DNA from: Deltaproteobacteria bacterium
Lineage (GTDB): Bacteria > Desulfobacterota > Desulfobacteria > Desulfobacterales > Desulfobacteraceae
Direction: 5' to 3'
Length of the DNA stretch: 64,000 nucleotides
Assembly (NCBI GenBank): GCA_013151635.1
Contig: JAADHV010000097.1
Span: 1-64,000, forward strand
The notes beneath the pieces are model-generated. The model searched no databases and had not been told where the DNA came from. It saw nothing but the letters and a program-made list of their open reading frames with translations. Shown here piece after piece: positions 31,362 through 40,638 of the stretch. The stretch's first letter is position 1. Each line of letters begins with the position of its first letter. The translations under genes and the position numbers were made by a program.

Positions 31362-31466
31362 GGTATGCAGCAACTCCTTTAGATTATAATAATCAAAACT
31401 TAATTAAATACCTGGTATTGTTCAAAAAGTCAAATTTTTTAAAATCTCAAGAATCAATCCTCTAAA

Positions 31467-31691
31467 TCAATCAAGACCTGCACCGGTATCCTTAATAATT
31501 CCGGCGCCTGAATACTCCAGTTTCGGATAATGATCTTCATCAGGCTTCCAAGATGATTTTTGATAATAGATTCTTTTGGTATCTTTCAGATTTTCAATTG
31601 CTGAAAAGCCCTGACTGGGGTAATTAATGGTGAGTGTCGGTTTTGACTTTTGGGGCCTACCGGCCTTCGATATTTTCTCTGAGTTCTTCAT
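31467..31691 (-). CDS. doubtful small ORF (74 aa), possible remnant
   Basis: A 74-codon frame beginning MKNSEKISKAGRPQKSK. It has no ribosome binding site and no recognised domain. The basic GRPQK start recalls DNA-binding tails, but nothing more can be said. It lies at the island edge and may be a decayed fragment. Confidence 0.25.
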   Translation of the reverse strand: MKNSEKISKAGRPQKSKPTLTINYPSQGFSAIENLKDTKRIYYQKSSWKPDEDHYPKLEYSGAGIIKDTGAGLD

Positions 31692-31807
31692 TAAAAAGTT
31701 GATTTTCGGTTAGACACTCAAATCAAAAATATATGACTTTAATATACGTTTTTCAAAATCTTTTACAAATAATAAAAATTGTTTTTAGTATATTATCGAC
31801 AATATTC

Positions 31808-31866
31808 GATATCTTTGAGAATCCATTCCCCTAGTCCCCTGGATACTTCCAACAGGAATAATATAT
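31808..31866 (+). repeat. island repeat, copy A
   Basis: It shares GATATCTTTGAGAAT (15 bp) and ATACTTCCAACAGG (14 bp) exactly with copy B at 34908, in the same orientation and about the same spacing, ending CAGGAATAAT. Copies A and B are 3.1 kb apart and bracket the zinc-ribbon gene, the DUF362 gene and the recombinase pseudogene. Confidence 0.75.
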
Positions 31867-31988
31867 CTTTACAATAATAATTGGTCTTGATACTGAATTA
31901 CATATCCAATTTTAATCGTTTTAGGTCTGATACCACAGCAATTTATATGATATCCAGATCTGCACAATAAATGGGAGAAGAAATCAGC

Positions 31989-32240
31989 ATGAATGAAATC
32001 AATACTCAAATTGAATGGCAGGATGGTAGCGGCGAGACCGTTGAAATCGGCTACTTCAATCCAAACGCCCAGCAGTGTTGCGGACATTGCGGAGTAGCTG
32101 GAACCGATTATGGGCAGTATGCATACAAAACCGAATGTACCATCTGTGGCTATGTGTATGGAACAAATGGGTCTGACATGCATGAAAGGAGGTGCCCAGA
32201 GTGTCAAAAGGGGGTGGGAATTTGGAAAGAATCTGTATAA
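31989..32240 (+). CDS. small zinc-ribbon protein of unknown function
   Basis: Starting at ATG 31989 (MNEINTQIEWQDGSGE), the product is 83 aa. Paired cysteines CCGHCG, CTICG and RRCPECQKG suggest one or two zinc ribbons; the GTNGSDMHERRCPECQ segment looks conserved in character. It could bind nucleic acid or serve as a small accessory protein. It is the first gene between repeats A and B and lies upstream of the DUF362 gene. No function is assigned. Confidence 0.6.
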   Translation: MNEINTQIEWQDGSGETVEIGYFNPNAQQCCGHCGVAGTDYGQYAYKTECTICGYVYGTNGSDMHERRCPECQKGVGIWKESV

Positions 32241-32415
32241 AAATTACTGGAAGATTGGGTCGTTTGATTTTGTATTTTCCATATATTTGAATTTTATTTC
32301 TGTAATATAATTTGTCTTGCACCACAAATTTATTGCATGTTTGTTTTTATCTTAAAATCGACCTTAATCTCCGAATAAACAGGAATTAGCTATTCGCATT
32401 GAAAAGGAGAATTGC

Positions 32416-33852
32416 ATGGTAAAAAAGTATAAAGTTCTAATTATGAGGTGTGAGTCTTATGATGCTGAAAAAATTGCAGAGATTATCAAAAAGGGTATGG
32501 AAGAATTAAATGCGATTCCTACAGGAAACATTCTTTTAAAACCCAATGTGGTCATGGCTCACAAGGAGTTTTTTCCCCATGCTTTTACCCGGCCGGAGTT
32601 CATTGACGGCGTTATCGCTGCCACTAAAGGAATGGCGAAAGATGTCAAAGAAATCTCAGTGGGTGAGCGATCCGGGATCACCATTCCTACACGTTATAAT
32701 TTTAAACAGGCCGGCTATCCAAAAGTTATTAAAAAACATGGTGTTAAAACGTACTTTTTCGACGAAGTCAAACATGTCCCCTTTAAACTTAAAAAAGATG
32801 TCAATCTTCGTAACAATATGTTTTTCCCTAAACCCATTGTGGACTGTGATTTCCTGATTAACCTGCCAAAATTCAAAGCTCATCCTTGGACTCGTCTCAC
32901 TTTGAGTTTGAAGAATTTTATCGGGATTCAGGATGACAAACACCGGCTGGTAGATCACAATTCCTTTCTCGAACACAAAATAGCCGATCTGCAGGAGGTC
33001 ATTCAGCCCAAATTTATTGCAATAGACGGCATCACAGCAGGCCAGAAAATGATGTTGACACCCACCCCGTTTGATATGGGAGCTATTGTGATGGGGACGA
33101 ATTCGTGTGCGGTGGATACAGTGTGCGCACATATGGTCAATGTTGACCCCAAAGACGTTATTCACCTGAAATTGACATCAGAAAGAGGTTTCGGACCGAT
33201 GAAACTTGAGGAGATAGACGTTTTGGGAGATTTTCCACTGGAAGAGATGCAGAAAAAAACCGAAAATTTTCAATTTTGCATGGAGCACATCGACAGCTAT
33301 TTTGAGAAATCTCCTAATTTAAGCTGTACCGTCGGCACCTTCCCTGAAAAGCACTCTCCAGATTATTGCTGGGGAGGATGCCCTGGATCTCTGCAGGAAT
33401 CGATGCATATTTTCAGGGGCTTTTACCCGGAGATTGAAAAAGAAATGGGTAAAGTCAGGTATGTGGTGGGTAAGGTTGAAGGGCCACTCAACTTGGAGCC
33501 AGCTGAAAAAGTAATTTTTGCCGGTGACTGTACCAGTTGGGAAGGAGAAATTGATGGAGAACAGGTAACAATCGAAAGTGCTTACAAAACGACATCTGAA
33601 GTGGATGAGAAAAAAGCCAAATCAAACGATCTTCAGAAGAAGATTATTTCAGCAACTGCACACGGATTTTTTAATAGGAAACGATATATCCATCTAAAAG
33701 GATGTCCCACTTCAGTGGCTCAACACGTCAACTATATATCGTCCATGGCAAAAATTCCCAACATCAATTTTGACCCAAGATTGATGTTCGGTGTAAACAC
33801 CGCCTACTATCAAATGCGGTTCAAGCGGTTTTTCAATCATCTGTTTGGTTAA
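32416..33852 (+). CDS. DUF362 domain protein
   Basis: A 478-aa protein with a strong AAGGAG site. The first ~300 residues match DUF362: ILLKPNVV, DVKEISVGERSGI, FLINLPKFKAHPWTRLTLSLKNFIGI and KFIAIDGITAGQ. The C-terminal ~170 residues add cysteines (YCWGGCPGSLQE, FAGDCTSWEGE, LKGCPTS), though no classical ferredoxin CxxCxxC motif is evident. DUF362 proteins are usually associated with iron-sulfur proteins of anaerobes and are of unknown function. It lies between repeats A and B, next to a broken recombinase, so it may be mobile cargo. Confidence 0.85.
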   Translation: MVKKYKVLIMRCESYDAEKIAEIIKKGMEELNAIPTGNILLKPNVVMAHKEFFPHAFTRPEFIDGVIAATKGMAKDVKEISVGERSGITIPTRYNFKQAGYPKVIKKHGVKTYFFDEVKHVPFKLKKDVNLRNNMFFPKPIVDCDFLINLPKFKAHPWTRLTLSLKNFIGIQDDKHRLVDHNSFLEHKIADLQEVIQPKFIAIDGITAGQKMMLTPTPFDMGAIVMGTNSCAVDTVCAHMVNVDPKDVIHLKLTSERGFGPMKLEEIDVLGDFPLEEMQKKTENFQFCMEHIDSYFEKSPNLSCTVGTFPEKHSPDYCWGGCPGSLQESMHIFRGFYPEIEKEMGKVRYVVGKVEGPLNLEPAEKVIFAGDCTSWEGEIDGEQVTIESAYKTTSEVDEKKAKSNDLQKKIISATAHGFFNRKRYIHLKGCPTSVAQHVNYISSMAKIPNINFDPRLMFGVNTAYYQMRFKRFFNHLFG

Positions 33853-33974
33853 TTCTACTGGTTGATTCTTCACTATAAATCATTAGCCCATCACAAGGCG
33901 AGTTTGAAAAGAAATATTCATTCAGACTCGTCATTTGATTTACGGAATAGATATCAGGCCCCAAAAAAGGAGGG

Positions 33975-34843
33975 ATGAGATACTGTATCGCCGTCATTTT
34001 TAATCAAACCAGAAACTCAAAGATAACTTGCATTAATCAGTTTTTCAATTATCAAAAATTGAACGTTAAAAAAAAATACGATCCTGAATTATGAATTTAT
34101 CCTAAGCAGGTTTCAAAAACATTTCGGCGATGTTGAGCTATCATCTATTACCTCAGATGATATTCTGGAATTTATGACCAAAATATCTGGGAACACCAAA
34201 CAGAACACCAAAAGATTAAGATTTACACTCCTGGCAGCATTTTTTAAGAACTCTATTGATCCAAATTTCCAAAATCCATGTGATAACGCGGCACTTCGAA
34301 GACTTTTCAGGGCAAAAAAAAATATCCAGTTTAAAATCCTTGAAAAAGATATTGTCGATGAAATCATTTTCAGAACTCAAAATCAAAGAAATCGAATCAT
34401 GTTGGAACTCATGGCCCGTTGTTGTATGCGGATTGGGGAGGTTCTGAATCTGACACCGATGGATATTGAAGATCGTAAGGTTATTATTCAATCCCCGAAA
34501 AGTGGCAGTGCCTCCGAAGCTGTATTCTTGCCTCAAAAGGTAATAGATCGGATGAAAAATTATATTCGGGATAAAAAAAATTAAATCTGAGACCAGAATT
34601 TTCCCTATAACCTATGCCGGGGCAAGATTGGTTGTTAAAAAGGCAGGAGATTTAGTGAATATCAAAGTCAGGCCACATGATCTTCGAAGACATGCTGCAA
34701 CATATGCATCTCGTTCCGGCACACCGCTTGAAATTGTCAGCAAGGTGCTGTTACGCCATTCAAATTTGTCTACTACCCAAAGGTATCTTGGAAAAACAAG
34801 TGACTCAGAAGCAATCAGGTGGATTGATCATTTACATGGATAA
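33975..34843 (+). pseudogene. tyrosine recombinase/integrase interrupted by two +1 frameshifts at poly-A runs
   Basis: Three consecutive frames together encode one ~290-aa tyrosine recombinase. Frame 1 begins at ATG 33975 and ends after an A9 run (34068-34076). Frame 2 contains the SAM-like core-binding domain (ILNYEFILSRFQKHFGDVEL) and first catalytic Arg (MRIGEVLNLTPMDIE), plus the beta-strand Lys (SPKSG), and stops after an A8 run (34573-34580). Frame 3 carries HDLRRHAAT, LLRHSNLS and the nucleophile Tyr in TTQRYLG. All catalytic residues are intact. Each shift has the same sign, as if one A were added to each run. It is either a recent pseudogene, a sequencing error or a gene expressed by slippage. 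Confidence 0.8.
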
Positions 34844-34907
34844 TTCATAAATGCCCGGGTTGGTCCCACTGGATTCAATCCGGTTTATATCAGTTAACAA
34901 TTGATTT

Positions 34908-34967
34908 GATATCTTTGAGAATTCAGATCCCTGAATACTTCCAACAGGGATAATTATACTTGAGTGC
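34908..34967 (+). repeat. island repeat, copy B
   Basis: It shares two exact blocks with copy A and CAGGGATAAT-x-ATACTTGAG-x-GC with copy C. An internal inverted repeat ATCCCTG...CAGGGAT (11-nt loop) may form a hairpin. It begins 65 bp after the recombinase stop codon, the position expected of an attachment site. Confidence 0.75.
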
Positions 34968-35089
34968 TCGAAATTAAGGAGAGGTAATGAATCCTTGACT
35001 CATTGTTTCTATCGCCTTATAGTGGCATAAAAAAAATGTCGATCACACAAATTGGCTATGTTCATGATTAAAAAGGATATCATCGGAAG

Positions 35090-35545
35090 ATGTTTGGTTT
35101 AATAAAAAAAATTATTGGCAGCGGCAATGGAAAAGTGCAGACTACAGACCAAGATATTCTTACCGCCCATTTGGCGTTGACCGTACTGCTGCTTGATGCA
35201 GCCTATGCAGATGGTGAGTGCAGTGAAGAAGAAAAAGAGCATCTTGCCACAACACTTGTGACAAACTTTGGGATATCCGGACAAGAAATTGATACCCTGC
35301 TCGCTGACAGGGATAAAGAACGCAAAGAGCATGTTGGCCTTTTTCGCTATACTCGCGTTATAAACGAAAATTTTTCCGAAAAGCAAAAGATCGACATAAT
35401 GGAATCTGCCTGGCGTATCATTTTGCTGGACGATCACCTTGAAGCGCATGAGGACCACTTTGTCCACAAACTTGCAAACCTTCTTAACCTCAGCCATAGC
35501 GACTTGATCGACGCCAAACTCCGGGCACGAAAACAGCTCTCATAA
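35090..35545 (+). CDS. TerB-like protein
   Basis: A 151-aa, all-helical acidic protein matching the TerB/DjlA N-terminal-like fold: HLALTVLLLDAAYADGECSEEEKEHL contains the acidic metal-binding loop (ADGECSEEE), and a second half-repeat has ILLDDHLEAHEDHFVHKLANLL. TerB-like proteins are linked to tellurite resistance or stress and phage-defence loci, but single copies occur widely. It sits alone between repeats B and C. Confidence 0.82.
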   Translation: MFGLIKKIIGSGNGKVQTTDQDILTAHLALTVLLLDAAYADGECSEEEKEHLATTLVTNFGISGQEIDTLLADRDKERKEHVGLFRYTRVINENFSEKQKIDIMESAWRIILLDDHLEAHEDHFVHKLANLLNLSHSDLIDAKLRARKQLS

Positions 35546-35611
35546 TTATAACACAAGTAAATCAGGAAACCTTTTCTCTGTCTCAGATTTTCAATATAAT
35601 GAAATATAGTT

Positions 35612-35673
35612 TTTGAATCCTTGATAATTTCAGGGACTTAAAACTACGTACAGGGATAATAATACTTGAGAGC
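35612..35673 (+). repeat. island repeat, copy C (within the 35546-35849 gap)
   Basis: The right half CAGGGATAATAATACTTGAGAGC matches copy B at 21 of 23 positions. The left half (CCTTGATAATTT...) is diverged but alignable. It lies between the TerB-like gene and the AraC regulator. The rest of this 304-bp gap shows no ORF. Confidence 0.6.
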
Positions 35674-35849
35674 AACTAATCAATTTTTCAAGTTGATATA
35701 TCAGTAATACATAGGGGAATATTTCAAACTAAACTTGTTAGAAAATTATGCTGAACGTTGGAAATCACCGATATTATCCAGGGCTTTTTTTGTTGAGTTT
35801 TTATTAATTTCTATCCATCAAGAGCCAGAGGTAGCCCCCTTTTTAACAA

Positions 35850-36887
35850 TCAGGTTAATTTTTGAATATAGGCTTTCGGGGTTTGCCCGGTCCATCGTTT
35901 GAAAGCATGGTTAAAGGCACTTTGATCTGAATACCCCAGTATAAATGCTACTTCACAAATTGTAACGTCCTGTTTGGCAAGATTGTCAACGGCCATTTGT
36001 TTACGTGTCGTTTCAAGAAGAGTACGATAGTTAGTTTTTTCAACTTTAAGCTTTTCTTGAAGAGCACGTTTGCTTACCGCAAGTCTTTGAGAAATAGAAT
36101 CAATATCGGGTATATCCCCTTTAAAGATCACATCACTGATCAAACGCAATACCCTGTTCGACCATTCTTTCTCTTTGGGCATGGTATTCACAAGCCGTGT
36201 AGCATGTCTTTCAAGAACCTTATATAGTTCCTGATTGGCCAGCTCAATCTTTATGTCTAAATCCTTGGTTTCTATGACCAATTCATTTTTATTCTCTTTA
36301 AATATTATGGGTGCGTTGAACACTTGTTGATATTCATTTTTACCATCTGGATCGCTTGGCCCGACGTGTGTAAAGCAAACCTTTACAAGGGTCAATCTTC
36401 CCTTGCTGAGAAAGCTTAAAATAGAATAATACGTACACAAAAGCGCTTCTGACAAGTGTGGTTGGGGTTGAAAATCTGGTGAAGCAATTTCCCATGATAA
36501 ATGAGTAAACTCCCCTGTTATTTGAAACTGAGGCTGGATAATATCTGCAATAATACGATGATATCGAACAAAGACTTGAAGGGCCTTTTCAATGTTATCG
36601 CAGTTCAGCATCATAGTAAAAAGGACGCTTCCTCCAGGATAGTGTCTGGCCATCTGACGTCCGAAATTTAATCCTGGATAAGGATCTTTGCTTAAAGAAA
36701 CGATCTTCAGCCACATTGACTCAAAAGATTTACTTGAAATCCTGGCTTCACTATTTTTTAGGATGGACATATTAAAGCCACAAAATATAGCCACTTTTTT
36801 GAAGTCAACGCCTAACCTATTTGCATAGGCGTTTAAAATTTTTACCAATCCGACCGAAACAGTAGAATTTTTCCGATATTTTGCCAT
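35850..36887 (-). CDS. AraC family transcriptional regulator with N-terminal arabinose-binding-like domain
   Basis: A 345-aa regulator; ATG 36887 follows GGAG. The large N-terminal domain (LNFGRQMARHYPGGSVLFTMMLNCDNIEKAL) is the type found in OruR/VirS-like AraC proteins. The C-terminal HTH pair is DIDSISQRLAVSKRALQEKLK and VAFILGYSDQSAFNHAFKRWTGQTPKAY. It is divergently oriented from a membrane-protein/thioesterase pair, which is probably its target. Confidence 0.9.
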   Translation of the reverse strand: MAKYRKNSTVSVGLVKILNAYANRLGVDFKKVAIFCGFNMSILKNSEARISSKSFESMWLKIVSLSKDPYPGLNFGRQMARHYPGGSVLFTMMLNCDNIEKALQVFVRYHRIIADIIQPQFQITGEFTHLSWEIASPDFQPQPHLSEALLCTYYSILSFLSKGRLTLVKVCFTHVGPSDPDGKNEYQQVFNAPIIFKENKNELVIETKDLDIKIELANQELYKVLERHATRLVNTMPKEKEWSNRVLRLISDVIFKGDIPDIDSISQRLAVSKRALQEKLKVEKTNYRTLLETTRKQMAVDNLAKQDVTICEVAFILGYSDQSAFNHAFKRWTGQTPKAYIQKLT

Positions 36888-37079
36888 CAACTATCTCCAA
36901 AAAAACTATTGGATTAAAAATAACCTAAGTTTGCGCAAAAGATCAATTTATTTGTGTGAACGATCAAGACTTCAGTAAAAAAAAATGTGTATCCTATTTG
37001 CAAGTTCTGAGGAAGCATTAAATAAAATTTTTATGAGGATGGTCGATTCGTTTATTAAAAACAAAAAAGGAGATGTACA

Positions 37080-37505
37080 ATGAGCTCACAAAGAAAAATA
37101 CAGATAATGAAAACAATATGCTGGATTGGTGTTGCAGCAGATGCACTTTGGGCAATCGCTTTGGTCTTTCCCAAATTTTATGGCACCCTGACCGGCCAAC
37201 CTGATCTCCAAGTTGATCTTATCCTGCGATTGGCACTGGGTATTGCAGGAGCACTAATGGCGGGTTGGACCCTGCTTTTGGCTTGGGCAGCGAAAAGTCC
37301 TGTTGAGCGTCGAGCAGTGATGGCTTTAACTGCAGTGCCGGTTGTCGCTGGATTGCTTACAGTTACTTTGATTGGAATTATTAATGGGAATAGTTCAACA
37401 TCATGGATACTTGTTAAGTGTGGTTTTTTATTTATTGCAATGCTTTGGGGATATCATGCAGCCTCAGCGATTGCCAAGGAGGATACATATGAAATCAACA
37501 ACTAA
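37080..37505 (+). CDS. small integral membrane protein of unknown function
   Basis: A 141-aa protein with about four hydrophobic helices (WIGVAADALWAIALVFPKFYG, LALGIAGALMAGWTLLLAWA, ALTAVPVVAGLLTVTLIGII and KCGFLFIAMLWGYHAASAIA). It has a good AAAGGAGA site. It overlaps the thioesterase gene by 17 bp, so co-translation is likely. No family was identified. Confidence 0.8.
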   Translation: MSSQRKIQIMKTICWIGVAADALWAIALVFPKFYGTLTGQPDLQVDLILRLALGIAGALMAGWTLLLAWAAKSPVERRAVMALTAVPVVAGLLTVTLIGIINGNSSTSWILVKCGFLFIAMLWGYHAASAIAKEDTYEINN

Positions 37506-37905
37506 AATTACAGTTCGAAGTTATCATGTTGACCATTTTGGTCATGTTAACCATGCCCGGTATGTGGAGTTGCTTGAGGAGGCTCGTTGGCGCTACCTTG
37601 AAGAAAATCAATTGCTTGAACCTATCCATCAAGTCGGGGCCTTTCATGTTGTCGCAAAGATCACGCTTCAGTATCGACACCCGGCATGTGTAGGAGAAAT
37701 ATTGCGTTTTGAAACGCAGATTGGCAGTCGGTCCACCTATGGCTTTCAAGTGGATCAAAAAGCCTATCTGAAAGATTCTGAAAAATTAGTTGTTAACGCC
37801 ATGATCTTAAATGTTTTTATTGACCCAGAAGGCCAACCACGGTTGATTGATCAAAATATTTTAGGGATTTGGCCAGATCTTGCCAAAGCTGATAAGATGG
37901 AATAA
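37489..37905 (+). CDS. acyl-CoA thioesterase, 4HBT hotdog family
   Basis: A 138-aa hotdog protein; ATG 37489 follows AAGGAGG. The active-site signature is VDHFGHVNHARYVELLEEARW, with the catalytic acidic residue in the DxxGHVN motif. The rest, including VVAKITLQYRHPACVGEILRFETQIG, is typical of YbgC/FadM-like thioesterases, which hydrolyse acyl-CoA. The substrate is unknown. The AraC regulator, membrane protein and thioesterase form a compact accessory cassette. Confidence 0.9.
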   Translation: MKSTTKITVRSYHVDHFGHVNHARYVELLEEARWRYLEENQLLEPIHQVGAFHVVAKITLQYRHPACVGEILRFETQIGSRSTYGFQVDQKAYLKDSEKLVVNAMILNVFIDPEGQPRLIDQNILGIWPDLAKADKME

Positions 37906-37989
37906 ATATAGTTTGATCCCATTGTTGATTGAAGTCATCACGCTTGATATTTCGAAAAATGACATTCCCTTGAGTGTCGCAAACAAAAA

Positions 37990-38346
37990 CTATTTGATCA
38001 TTTTCTGGATAGTTTTTCTTAATTGTGGAAGATGGTTTTCACAAATATCAAAAATGATTTCATGATCAACTTTTTCATAATGATGAGAAACAATATCACG
38101 CAACCTCATGATATTATCCCAATTGATTTCACTATACCCTTTCAAAAATGTACTATTTTTTTTGTCAATTTTTTTTAGCAACTCGCCAACGACCTGTAAT
38201 CGCATGGCAATTGCATCAAGGACGATTACCCCGCTATCATCCAAAACGAAGTCATCCGGCAGGTTAATATTTGAAAAACGCTTGTTGATCAAATCAAGTG
38301 ACTCTGAAATCAGTTGCAAATTTTCTACAATAATTTCATCAGGCAT
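37990..38346 (-). CDS. HepT-like HEPN ribonuclease toxin
   Basis: A 118-aa all-helical HEPN (DUF86) protein; its ATG at 38346 overlaps the antitoxin stop by 8 bp. The catalytic motif is in RLRDIVSHHYEKVD and fits RX4HXY, in which the Tyr is the residue polyAMPylated by MntA-type antitoxins in characterised pairs. HepT toxins cleave RNA. Gene order (antitoxin first) and overlap match known MNT-HEPN modules. Confidence 0.9.
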   Translation of the reverse strand: MPDEIIVENLQLISESLDLINKRFSNINLPDDFVLDDSGVIVLDAIAMRLQVVGELLKKIDKKNSTFLKGYSEINWDNIMRLRDIVSHHYEKVDHEIIFDICENHLPQLRKTIQKMIK

Positions 38347-38641
38347 AAATAATTTCCTGTTCAATTCGTTCAAAAAATCGACTTTTACTCAGATTGCGCT
38401 TCCGGACAATTTCTATTTTTTTTTCAAATTTTTTTTCCATATATATCTGCAAACTCACTATCCAATCAAAGCGAGGCTCTGAAAATTCGACAAGAAAATC
38501 AATATCACTATCCAGATTTTGTTGATCTTTGGCGTATGAACCAAACAGACCGATATTAAGAACGCCGAACTTTTCTTTTAAAAAGGCTTTTTCTGCCGTA
38601 ATTAAACTAATAATTTCATTTTTGGAAAGCGCTTTATCCAT
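38339..38641 (-). CDS. MNT nucleotidyltransferase antitoxin (MntA-like)
   Basis: A 100-aa minimal nucleotidyltransferase. The active site is GLFGSYAKDQQNLDSDIDFL, with the GSxA and SDxD pattern. In characterised systems MntA neutralises HepT by AMPylating its RX4HXY tyrosine. It is translationally coupled to the downstream HEPN toxin. Confidence 0.92.
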   Translation of the reverse strand: MDKALSKNEIISLITAEKAFLKEKFGVLNIGLFGSYAKDQQNLDSDIDFLVEFSEPRFDWIVSLQIYMEKKFEKKIEIVRKRNLSKSRFFERIEQEIIYA

Positions 38642-38766
38642 TTTTTAATCCAAGTCCCTAAATATTCAAGATATTGGTAGTACTATATTTGATCGTAGTT
38701 GGTGTGTCAAATTCCAACGACCTTTTTTTGACCACTCAAGATCGGTGTTTTATCTGGGGAAGTGAT

Positions 38767-39039
38767 TCATTTGGATATGATTTTTTCATATTTTGCTTTT
38801 GTCAAAGGGCATTCCAACAGTTGATCAAAGTCTGAAACCGATAAGCCTAACTGTCTAGCCATTGAGGCATATGTCTTTCTCGGAATATTTTTACGACCTT
38901 TTGGAACTGTTATTCGTTTTGCTTTTACACCGTTTAGCTTGAACCAGCCGTTAAATTCTTTTCCGCTTTTAAATTCAATGTGAAGTTTCTTTTCCCCTAC
39001 TTTTTTAACGTCTCTTACATTAAATTGCGCATTTTTCAT
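38767..39039 (-). CDS. HicA-like small protein, third gene of a three-gene operon
   Basis: A 90-aa basic protein. The second half (ITVPKGRKNIPRKTYASMARQLGLSVSDF) resembles the HicA toxin C-terminus, which usually reads IP..KEIPRGTLRSILRQAGLS. The typical HicA catalytic GSHH motif is absent; a single His sits in KLHIEFKSGKEF. A further tail (LECPLTKAKYEKIISK) extends past HicA. It starts 2 bp after the HicB-like gene without its own strong ribosome site, so coupling is likely. It could be an mRNA interferase relative or a DNA-binding protein. Confidence 0.6.
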   Translation of the reverse strand: MKNAQFNVRDVKKVGEKKLHIEFKSGKEFNGWFKLNGVKAKRITVPKGRKNIPRKTYASMARQLGLSVSDFDQLLECPLTKAKYEKIISK

Positions 39040-39041
39040 AA

Positions 39042-39506
39042 TCAGGAGTCAATAATCAATTCTATTAAGAAATTTTTTATACTTAGCCACTCTTCAGTAA
39101 AATTGTCATCTTCTATCAGATCAAAATATAGAGATTCAATTTCAAATTTAAGAGCATCTATAGCCTCAATTCTGTCATCACCGCAACCGAATAAAGAAAA
39201 GTCAACAGTTCTAGCAATAAACCCTTCGCTATCTTCCTCGATTATCACATCTAAAGGATTTCTCAATCGTTTTGTTTCCAACATATTTAATTTGATTATG
39301 ATTGCTTCATTTTTTTTAGATTCAGCATAATTTTTTTGTTCGATATAAGTAGCAATATGAGGAATCAACTTTTCCAATTCTATACTTGTTGCTACTCCTT
39401 CTTCAGCAATCACTGGAGTTGATGTAGTGTCTGACTCATTATGTTTATATTTCCAGTCAGAAAGAGAAGAGATATCAGTGGCACTATTTGTTGCTGTTCC
39501 GGTCAT
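39042..39506 (-). CDS. HicB-like domain protein, middle gene of a three-gene operon
   Basis: A 154-aa acidic protein. Residues ~83-130 (PLDVIIEEDSEGFIARTVD, then FGCGDDRIEAIDALKFEI) resemble the HicB antitoxin fold. The ~80 residues before it are an unrelated, partly helical extension (IPHIATYIEQKNYAESKKNE), and no C-terminal HTH or ribbon-helix-helix is seen. The gene lies 1 bp from its upstream neighbour and 2 bp from the HicA-like gene. It is probably an antitoxin-like partner with an added interaction domain (inference). Confidence 0.6.
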   Translation of the reverse strand: MTGTATNSATDISSLSDWKYKHNESDTTSTPVIAEEGVATSIELEKLIPHIATYIEQKNYAESKKNEAIIIKLNMLETKRLRNPLDVIIEEDSEGFIARTVDFSLFGCGDDRIEAIDALKFEIESLYFDLIEDDNFTEEWLSIKNFLIELIIDS

Positions 39507-39507
39507 T

Positions 39508-40161
39508 TCAATCCTTTGAATTTATTTTATTCGTTAATTCTTGGCAGATACGTTTTGCCTCATCCCATTTGTCGAATAAACCAATAACACTATTATGATC
39601 ATCTTCTTCATTAAGGCTAATATTAAAATTATATGCGAGCTGAAGCATTTCCTTTTTTTTATTCTGCATCACTATGGAAATAGGTTTTGCATCAAGTCTA
39701 AATCTTGTCCCTAGGAGATCCTTGCTAAAATACCCACCAAATCGCACATTTTCTTCCTCAAGATCATTAAATAATTTTGATTGTTCATTACAAAATAATG
39801 ATCGGGTTAATTTATAGATATCTTTATCCGATGGAGTTACATGATATGTAAAATTTAGCCCAGCTGCTGTAAATGGAGTGTGGGGTAAAAGTTTAACAAG
39901 CCGACCGATTTTTGATGATAGTAATTCTTTGGTGTTTTTATATTTAGTGTTTATTGAAAATTGCAATCGATCCGGAACAATATGTAATCGAAAGTCATCG
40001 GATTGAGCTTCTACAATTACGGGTAAACACGTTGCTCCTTGCAATTCTTTTTCCGTAAAAATTTTATTTTTATATAGCCAAACTGTATTTAATATATTTA
40101 CGTTGAAGGTGGAGGCAATAATAACTATGTTACAGTCAACAAAGTCTATATCGTGATTCAT
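39508..40161 (-). CDS. unknown 217-aa protein heading a HicB/HicA-like operon
   Basis: A soluble 217-aa protein with no signal peptide or membrane helix. Its distinctive segments are FRLHIVPDRLQFSIN, LPHTPFTAAGLNFTYHV and LLGTRFRLDAKPISIVM, followed by a C-terminal helix (WDEAKRICQELTNKI). The regular beta-strand pattern suggests a compact alpha/beta domain. I do not recognise the family. It is the promoter-proximal gene, 1 bp ahead of the HicB-like gene, so it is probably essential to whatever this operon does, as a sensor, effector or structural component. Confidence 0.75.
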   Translation of the reverse strand: MNHDIDFVDCNIVIIASTFNVNILNTVWLYKNKIFTEKELQGATCLPVIVEAQSDDFRLHIVPDRLQFSINTKYKNTKELLSSKIGRLVKLLPHTPFTAAGLNFTYHVTPSDKDIYKLTRSLFCNEQSKLFNDLEEENVRFGGYFSKDLLGTRFRLDAKPISIVMQNKKKEMLQLAYNFNISLNEEDDHNSVIGLFDKWDEAKRICQELTNKINSKD

Positions 40162-40638
40162 TTTACAGTTTTTCCCAAGAATATTTTTTTGCTATGGATT
40201 ATTTAAAAAAATAATAACCATTTTTATTTATAAATCAAATATCATAAAAGATTATATAGAGCAAATTAATAATTATGATGCAAGCCGACTACTCAAGACT
40301 ACTTGCATTAGTCATAGCTTCCCCAATATTTAACAATTCAAACAGAATCTTTAAAAAACTTAAAAGCCTGTGGCCAGCCAGGAGTTGCCATATTCTGCAC
40401 CCCCAACCATAAAACACCGGAATACTTTTGATATTCCAGTTAATTTCAATTATTTTTTCAAAACAGGATGGACTACAAATGGATGGAAGGGGTGCAATCA
40501 TTTAAAGATTACGATGAGACAGGTACGGCATGGATCGGCCCTGTACAATTTTGCAAGTTCATAGTGTTGCTATAACGCATGTAATCTGATAATAACCACT
40601 TAAAAAAATAATAAATTTTTAATATTTTCCAGGTTGCC
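40162..40638. other. 477-bp non-coding region with nested inverted repeats
   Basis: No convincing gene. GCACCCC (40397-40403) pairs with GGGGTGC (40489-40495), extended by CCAT/ATGG after a small internal loop, and encloses a second hairpin GGAATA...TATTCC (40419-40437). Short peptide-like frames on both strands (for example 40468-40575) may be remnants of a decayed gene. The region marks the right edge of the island and contains the upstream regions of the 217-aa gene and PBP1A. Confidence 0.5.

Follow-up and report, generated by a model that had tools for sequence, protein, structure and literature searches.

Sites of about 75 bp that probably bound gene cassettes in an integron-like system of Desulfobacterota

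The repeats that lie around a tyrosine recombinase gene in a Desulfobacterota contig are very likely site-specific recombination sites bounding exchangeable units of DNA. This reading comes from comparing copies of the repeat within the window (the whole stretch of 64,000 nucleotides that was analysed) and across related genomes. The sites, about 75 bp long, probably mark the boundaries of cassettes in an integron-like system of Desulfobacterota, and the family of recombinases linked to them is likely to be what works them.

A model search of the window finds five sites, all on the + strand (Table 1). An earlier, sequence-only reading had described three related repeats, here A, B and C. These are genuine, and the blocks quoted from them are present, in a single orientation, where that reading put them. 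However, its count was incomplete. Two additional copies in the same orientation, S1 and S2, lie 5' of A and were overlooked, as were the degenerate state of A and the broken state of the recombinase. Open reading frames and Pfam matches bear out its account of the genes, with a zinc-ribbon ORF, DUF362 and the tyrosine recombinase enclosed by A and B, and TerB by B and C. Its spacing of about 65 bp between recombinase and B was also accurate (the stop ends at 34843 and the B block starts at 34908). The repeats are not at chance level. The 20-mer CAGGGATAATNATACTTGAG, allowing up to three mismatches, occurs twice against 0.04 expected, and B as a lone query finds copies in other genomes with E values down to 1e-12. 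An Rfam scan of the window gave no match, and no tRNA was found in it.

Table 1. Features of the window discussed in the text
Feature	Position	Strand	Remarks
Extra DNA, ~9.3 kb, between hisI and PBP1A gene	31362..40638	.	absent from eight relatives; sites fill left part
Site S1	31470..31544	+	GGATAAT 31525-31531; model matches 31485-31537 (35.3 bits) and 31471-31535
Site S2	31563..31637	+	GGGTAAT 31618-31624; model match 31564-31636, 35.3 bits, E 1e-9
Site A	31803..31872	+	degenerate, 8-nt insertion, GGAATAAT; 26.4 bits, E 6.5e-7; blocks common to B
Zinc-ribbon-like ORF, 89 aa	31971..32240	+	unit A-B cargo; cysteine pairs; no Pfam match
DUF362 protein	32416..33852	+	unit A-B cargo; PF04015, 6e-40
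Tyrosine recombinase pseudogene	34063..34843	+	PF00589, 2e-7; 83-87% identical to open copy in G000:C12
A9 run	34068..34076	+	where the recombinase family's N-terminus falls out of frame
Site B	34893..34967	+	near-consensus; 76.6 bits, E 1.4e-22; GGATAAT 34948-34954
TerB-domain gene with own promoter	35090..35545	+	unit B-C cargo; PF05099, 2e-27
Site C	35599..35673	+	GGATAAT 35654-35660; 55.8 bits, E 4e-16

How widespread are these sites? A sequence-only model built from 22 copies places them in 24 of 26 genomes of the genus, at 1 to 43 per genome, with 12 in the window's own genome. A BLAST search with B finds copies in 14 of the 26. At the family level they are present in 41 of 86 genomes, spread over 7 of 14 genera (E <= 1e-4). 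Two genera, g3 and g4, have hardly any and provide a built-in control, which argues that the model is not merely detecting A+T-rich DNA. The earlier suggestion of successive insertions at related sites came close to the truth. The sites make up a dispersed system, genus- and family-wide, in which arrays of one orientation have exchangeable units between the sites. In draft genomes, contig ends are often found a few hundred bases or less from a site (G017:C31, G018:C13, G002:C162, G018:C131 and others), which would fit strains varying at these points.

The form of the site is well defined. An alignment of 89 copies is almost gapless across 75 positions, and conservation, which extends over about 70 of them, ends at either edge; column identity among copies is about 72%. 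The consensus of 81 copies, GTTAAGTATATTTTTGGTATCTTTGAGAATTC-CGGCC-TTTGAATACTCCGGACAGGGATAATTATACTTGAGTG, has a single centre of dyad symmetry (z 4.3, against at most 1.6 at any other centre). Its right half consists of TGAATACTCC and GGATAATTAT around six variable bases, like a recombinase core, and its left half holds a similar inverted pair. Across the 81 copies there is no base-pair covariation on the main dyad and a weak signal one register off, so the site may be recognised by its sequence as duplex DNA and not as a folded strand. A CCCTG/CAGGG hairpin spotted by eye gained no support from covariation over the same copies. Hairpin ends of the IS200/IS605 type, considered from the TTGAT/TTGAG borders, were also dropped, because it is whole units that move, as opposed to single copies of the repeat. 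Left half-sites of another class (CAAGGTT...TTGATAT...) are joined to the same GGATAAT right end (L007, L061 541-615, L064, L074, L083, L090, L092, L097 and L139), and half-sites of the two classes seem to be interchangeable.

The candidate enzyme is the recombinase next to B. The window copy is dead, with no usual start codon, three residues missing relative to L077 and, besides the A9 run that it keeps, a second frame break at an A8 run (34573-34580). Its catalytic R, HxxR, H and Y motifs are still legible, and the window's own genome holds an open-frame relative of 262 codons (G000:C12). A search of public genomes found 214 relatives, and the best 80 of the 214 are nearly all from Desulfobacterota; a search for the recombinase on plasmids or phages gave no match. 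The nearest curated family is XerA (NCBIfam NF040815), at 103 bits and below the cut-off of 220, and the nearest solved relative is PDB 4a8e (E 3e-11).

The link between this family and the sites is one of position. In seven genomes (the window, L062, L082, L094, L190, L193 and L194) a site lies 60-83 nt 3' of a recombinase gene or its remnant. In the first four of these, a single shared block comprises recombinase sequence, a terminator-like hairpin and the site, and in the last three the site is 71-83 nt past the recombinase stop. The adjoining site resembles all the others. Immediately past GGATAAT the sequences of L062, L082 and L094 diverge, which is what would be expected of an entry site with varied units behind it. 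The site behind the recombinase is probably an attI-like entry point. Distant recombinases have a related sister site 51-86 nt past the stop, and their neighbourhoods contain six further copies, all pointing the same way (6:0), one of which lies behind a distant recombinase that has no match at the usual distance. A sister clade of recombinases (L143, L144, L145, L146 and L147) has another conserved downstream block, ending ...GAATACAAGT with divergence after it, and this is possibly a site type of its own.

What if the sites are real cassette sites worked by some other enzyme, such as XerCD as in dif modules, or integron integrases, with the solo recombinase a passenger that travels with its site? 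In its favour, the sequence within about 1.5 kb of most recombinase copies in the genus is free of sites, the one in the window is a pseudogene, and genuine IntI genes (above the TIGR02249 cut-off) coexist with the sites in 14 of the 26 genus genomes. However, no site of the new family lies within 1.5 kb at any of 12 IntI loci examined, and the consensus both lacks the GTT/AAC boxes of attC and is far from a 28-bp dif. Nor would a passenger readily account for the recombinase end and site being a conserved block in seven genomes, or for the matching sister site found equally far behind distant recombinases. The idea is therefore unlikely, and the linked recombinase family is preferred as the enzyme.

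One feature of this family is the frame of its N-terminus. In 59 of 76 scorable members the N-terminus (M-K-V-S-x-A...Y-H-x-x-N-S) is out of frame with the remaining protein. A run of 7-11 A is found at the join in 56 of these 59; one has 6, and two are mis-anchored. Among the in-frame members, 15 of 17 have at most five A. The out-of-frame set takes in isolates and a complete genome, so assembly error is not the whole explanation. Programmed frameshifting or slippage, which is found in several insertion sequences, is the probable role of the A-run, judging from these alignments. If this is true, it would hold recombinase expression low.

Copies of the site are mosaic. When 96 sites are anchored on GGATAAT, the left flank is common in 12 pairs, the right flank in 15 and both in 1. 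The best left-sharing pairs keep 95-97% identity from the flank as far as GGATAAT and drop to the background level directly after it, and in the reciprocal, right-sharing pairs identity starts at GGATAAT. Read from these comparisons, the pattern is the signature left by site-specific exchange at a single point, comparable to that of integron attC sites, and the crossover in B would lie at or within its GGATAAT (34948-34954). It is not quite so simple, because the 8 nt preceding GGATAAT also differ in part of the left-sharing pairs, changing independently of both flanks, and a simple one-point exchange model does not account for this.

Whole units have also moved. Two species, G009 (L061) and G008 (L097), have a 2.49-kb histidine-kinase unit in common at 97% identity; both of its ends are at GGATAAT, and the half-sites beyond differ on either side. 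Another unit of L061 is also present in G007, at 96% identity and with a precise 3' end. Neighbouring sites up to 5 kb apart are co-oriented in 32 of 34 pairs. The earlier proposal of attachment-type recombination sites tied to a tyrosine recombinase is supported.

These observations bear on a less favourable interpretation, that the copies are inert dispersed intergenic repeats or MITE/REP-like transposon remnants made mosaic by homologous recombination or gene conversion. They are indeed intergenic, as divergent as their column identity implies and scattered genome-wide. Yet the breakpoints gather at a single position of the site though the flanks differ wholly, neighbours point the same way by 32 to 2, and units move as wholes whose two ends both fall at this position, a pattern that random exchange or transposition would not yield. 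This makes inert repeats very improbable. The sequence-only reading had itself linked many genome-wide copies with a generic repeat. The many copies exist, but they are not inert, being mosaic at one fixed point and bracketing mobile units.

What do the recombination sites enclose? Units measure 0.4 to 4.7 kb across genomes and, by inspection of sequences, carry toxin-antitoxin pairs, a macro domain, nitrilase, transporters, sensors and similar cargo. Genes oppose the direction of the site more often than they follow it. A scan of the cargo for known defence genes gave one weak match, to TerB, and nothing else. TerB orthologues elsewhere have a conserved promoter and no sites, with one exception that has a site and is itself partial, and TerB looks like an ordinary gene that came to sit between two sites. 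Because these orthologues stand at other places in relatives, without sites, movement of the window's own units has not been seen directly. A HepT/nucleotidyltransferase toxin-antitoxin pair lies past C (37990-38641), within the right-hand portion of the extra DNA, and remnants of a similar pair are close to another site in the same genome (G000:C32, L007). At a further locus (L002, G000:C47), about 1.5 kb before an intact tRNA-Arg-like gene (1912-1985), lies a copy of its 5' half (361-401), and the two enclose a DUF433/DUF5615-like toxin-antitoxin pair plus a site. This arrangement looks like a tRNA-targeted insertion.

The locus itself is variable. In the window, hisI (31361) and the PBP1A gene (40639) are 9.3 kb apart and nearly all of the interval is extra DNA. 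Empty sites, which the sequence-only reading had proposed looking for, do exist: in eight relatives of the genus the two genes are adjacent, spaced by 164-424 nt with no site between them. The flanks of the insert still align with such a spacer, for example the 188-nt one of G017. Conserved synteny of the whole region, the alternative outcome that was raised, is thus not what the relatives display. On the 5' side of hisI, in up to 1.5 kb of available sequence from 21 relatives, there is no site and none of the window's cargo. Although direct repeats around an integrase-containing unit and the absence of the region from relatives fit the initial idea of a small integrative element (the zinc-ribbon gene, DUF362 and the integrase between attL and attR at A and B, with C an older attachment site), it hardly survives the finding of five sites rather than two, of sites of the same kind in arrays at other loci that lack any integrase, of extra DNA reaching about 5 kb past C and of no A-B block found as one unit elsewhere.

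How might such a cassette system work? Each site would be made of two antiparallel core-like halves, with exchange confined to the right one, at GGATAAT or immediately ahead of it, and presumably to one strand pair. Given that position, the upstream unit would take along about 62 nt of the site, leaving about 13 nt to the downstream one. Recombination between any two sites would add, remove or reshuffle units. Arrays of a single orientation would result, in which most units have one or two genes (toxin-antitoxin pairs, regulators, transporters, enzymes and, here, TerB). The likely enzyme is the XerA-like tyrosine recombinase family of about 260 aa, which has a site 60-83 nt past the end of its gene. 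Since the window's copy is dead, the array there would either stay unchanged or depend on a recombinase acting in trans; many array-bearing contigs have no recombinase in the sequence viewed. A bolder version, to which belief and doubt might be given in equal measure, is that a frameshift-restrained XerA-like recombinase and 75-nt two-core sites form a cassette system independent of integrons, in which attC-like logic was reached separately in Desulfobacterota.

Integrons are usually regarded as the sole system whose integrase gathers single-gene cassettes and changes their order. If a second one exists, with a recombinase and sites of its own and alongside true integrons, this logic would have arisen more than once. 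Such a system would also explain part of the turnover of accessory genes, toxin-antitoxin genes included, in sulfate reducers, and would offer a new pair of site and enzyme for asking why integrons use folded single strands. No description of this cassette system was found in a library of open-access papers, to which the search was confined.

Three known systems come closest to the new one. XerA-like recombinases (NF040815; 4a8e) are the closest curated family and the closest solved relative. However, the family here falls under the cut-off, is multi-copy with some copies broken, has an N-terminus like that of a programmed frameshift and is linked to cassette sites. The dif sites of Acinetobacter pdif modules, served by XerC/XerD, are about 28 bp long and alternate in orientation around modules. 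The likeness is in short tyrosine-recombinase sites around single genes and toxin-antitoxin pairs, and in a Xer-group recombinase. In contrast, the site here is 75 nt, forms direct repeats and adjoins a dedicated recombinase. By these sequence features the system is not a dif-module system.

The resemblance to integrons and CALIN clusters is in co-oriented arrays of short sites around small gene units, where one unit takes the bulk of each site and the following unit its short right end. As in integrons, there are two antiparallel cores with exchange in one only (the dyad, with breakpoints confined to the right core), a site that adjoins the recombinase gene in seven genomes, putatively in the role of attI, and toxin-antitoxin modules among the cargo. 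In attC, likewise, two antiparallel core sites are present, exchange takes place at L'-R' only, and the R boxes have a conserved AAC / GTT (PMC2727003). Unlike attC, the consensus here (81 copies, GTTAAGTATATTTTTGGTATC...ACAGGGATAATTATACTTGAGTG) has no GTT at the crossover and no GTT/AAC R boxes. Base-pair covariation was also not found on its main dyad, with the weak signal lying one register away. The recombinase differs too. It is not IntI, since an open family member scores 37 bits against TIGR02249 (cut-off 265), and in alignment it is without the long IntI segment before the HxxR motif. It also runs in the same direction as its own site and 5' of it, genes are often opposite to the site, and arrays are small and scattered rather than one large array. 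Judged from sequence, then, the system is integron-like in its working, yet it stands outside the integron family by two tested defining features, IntI and the R boxes.
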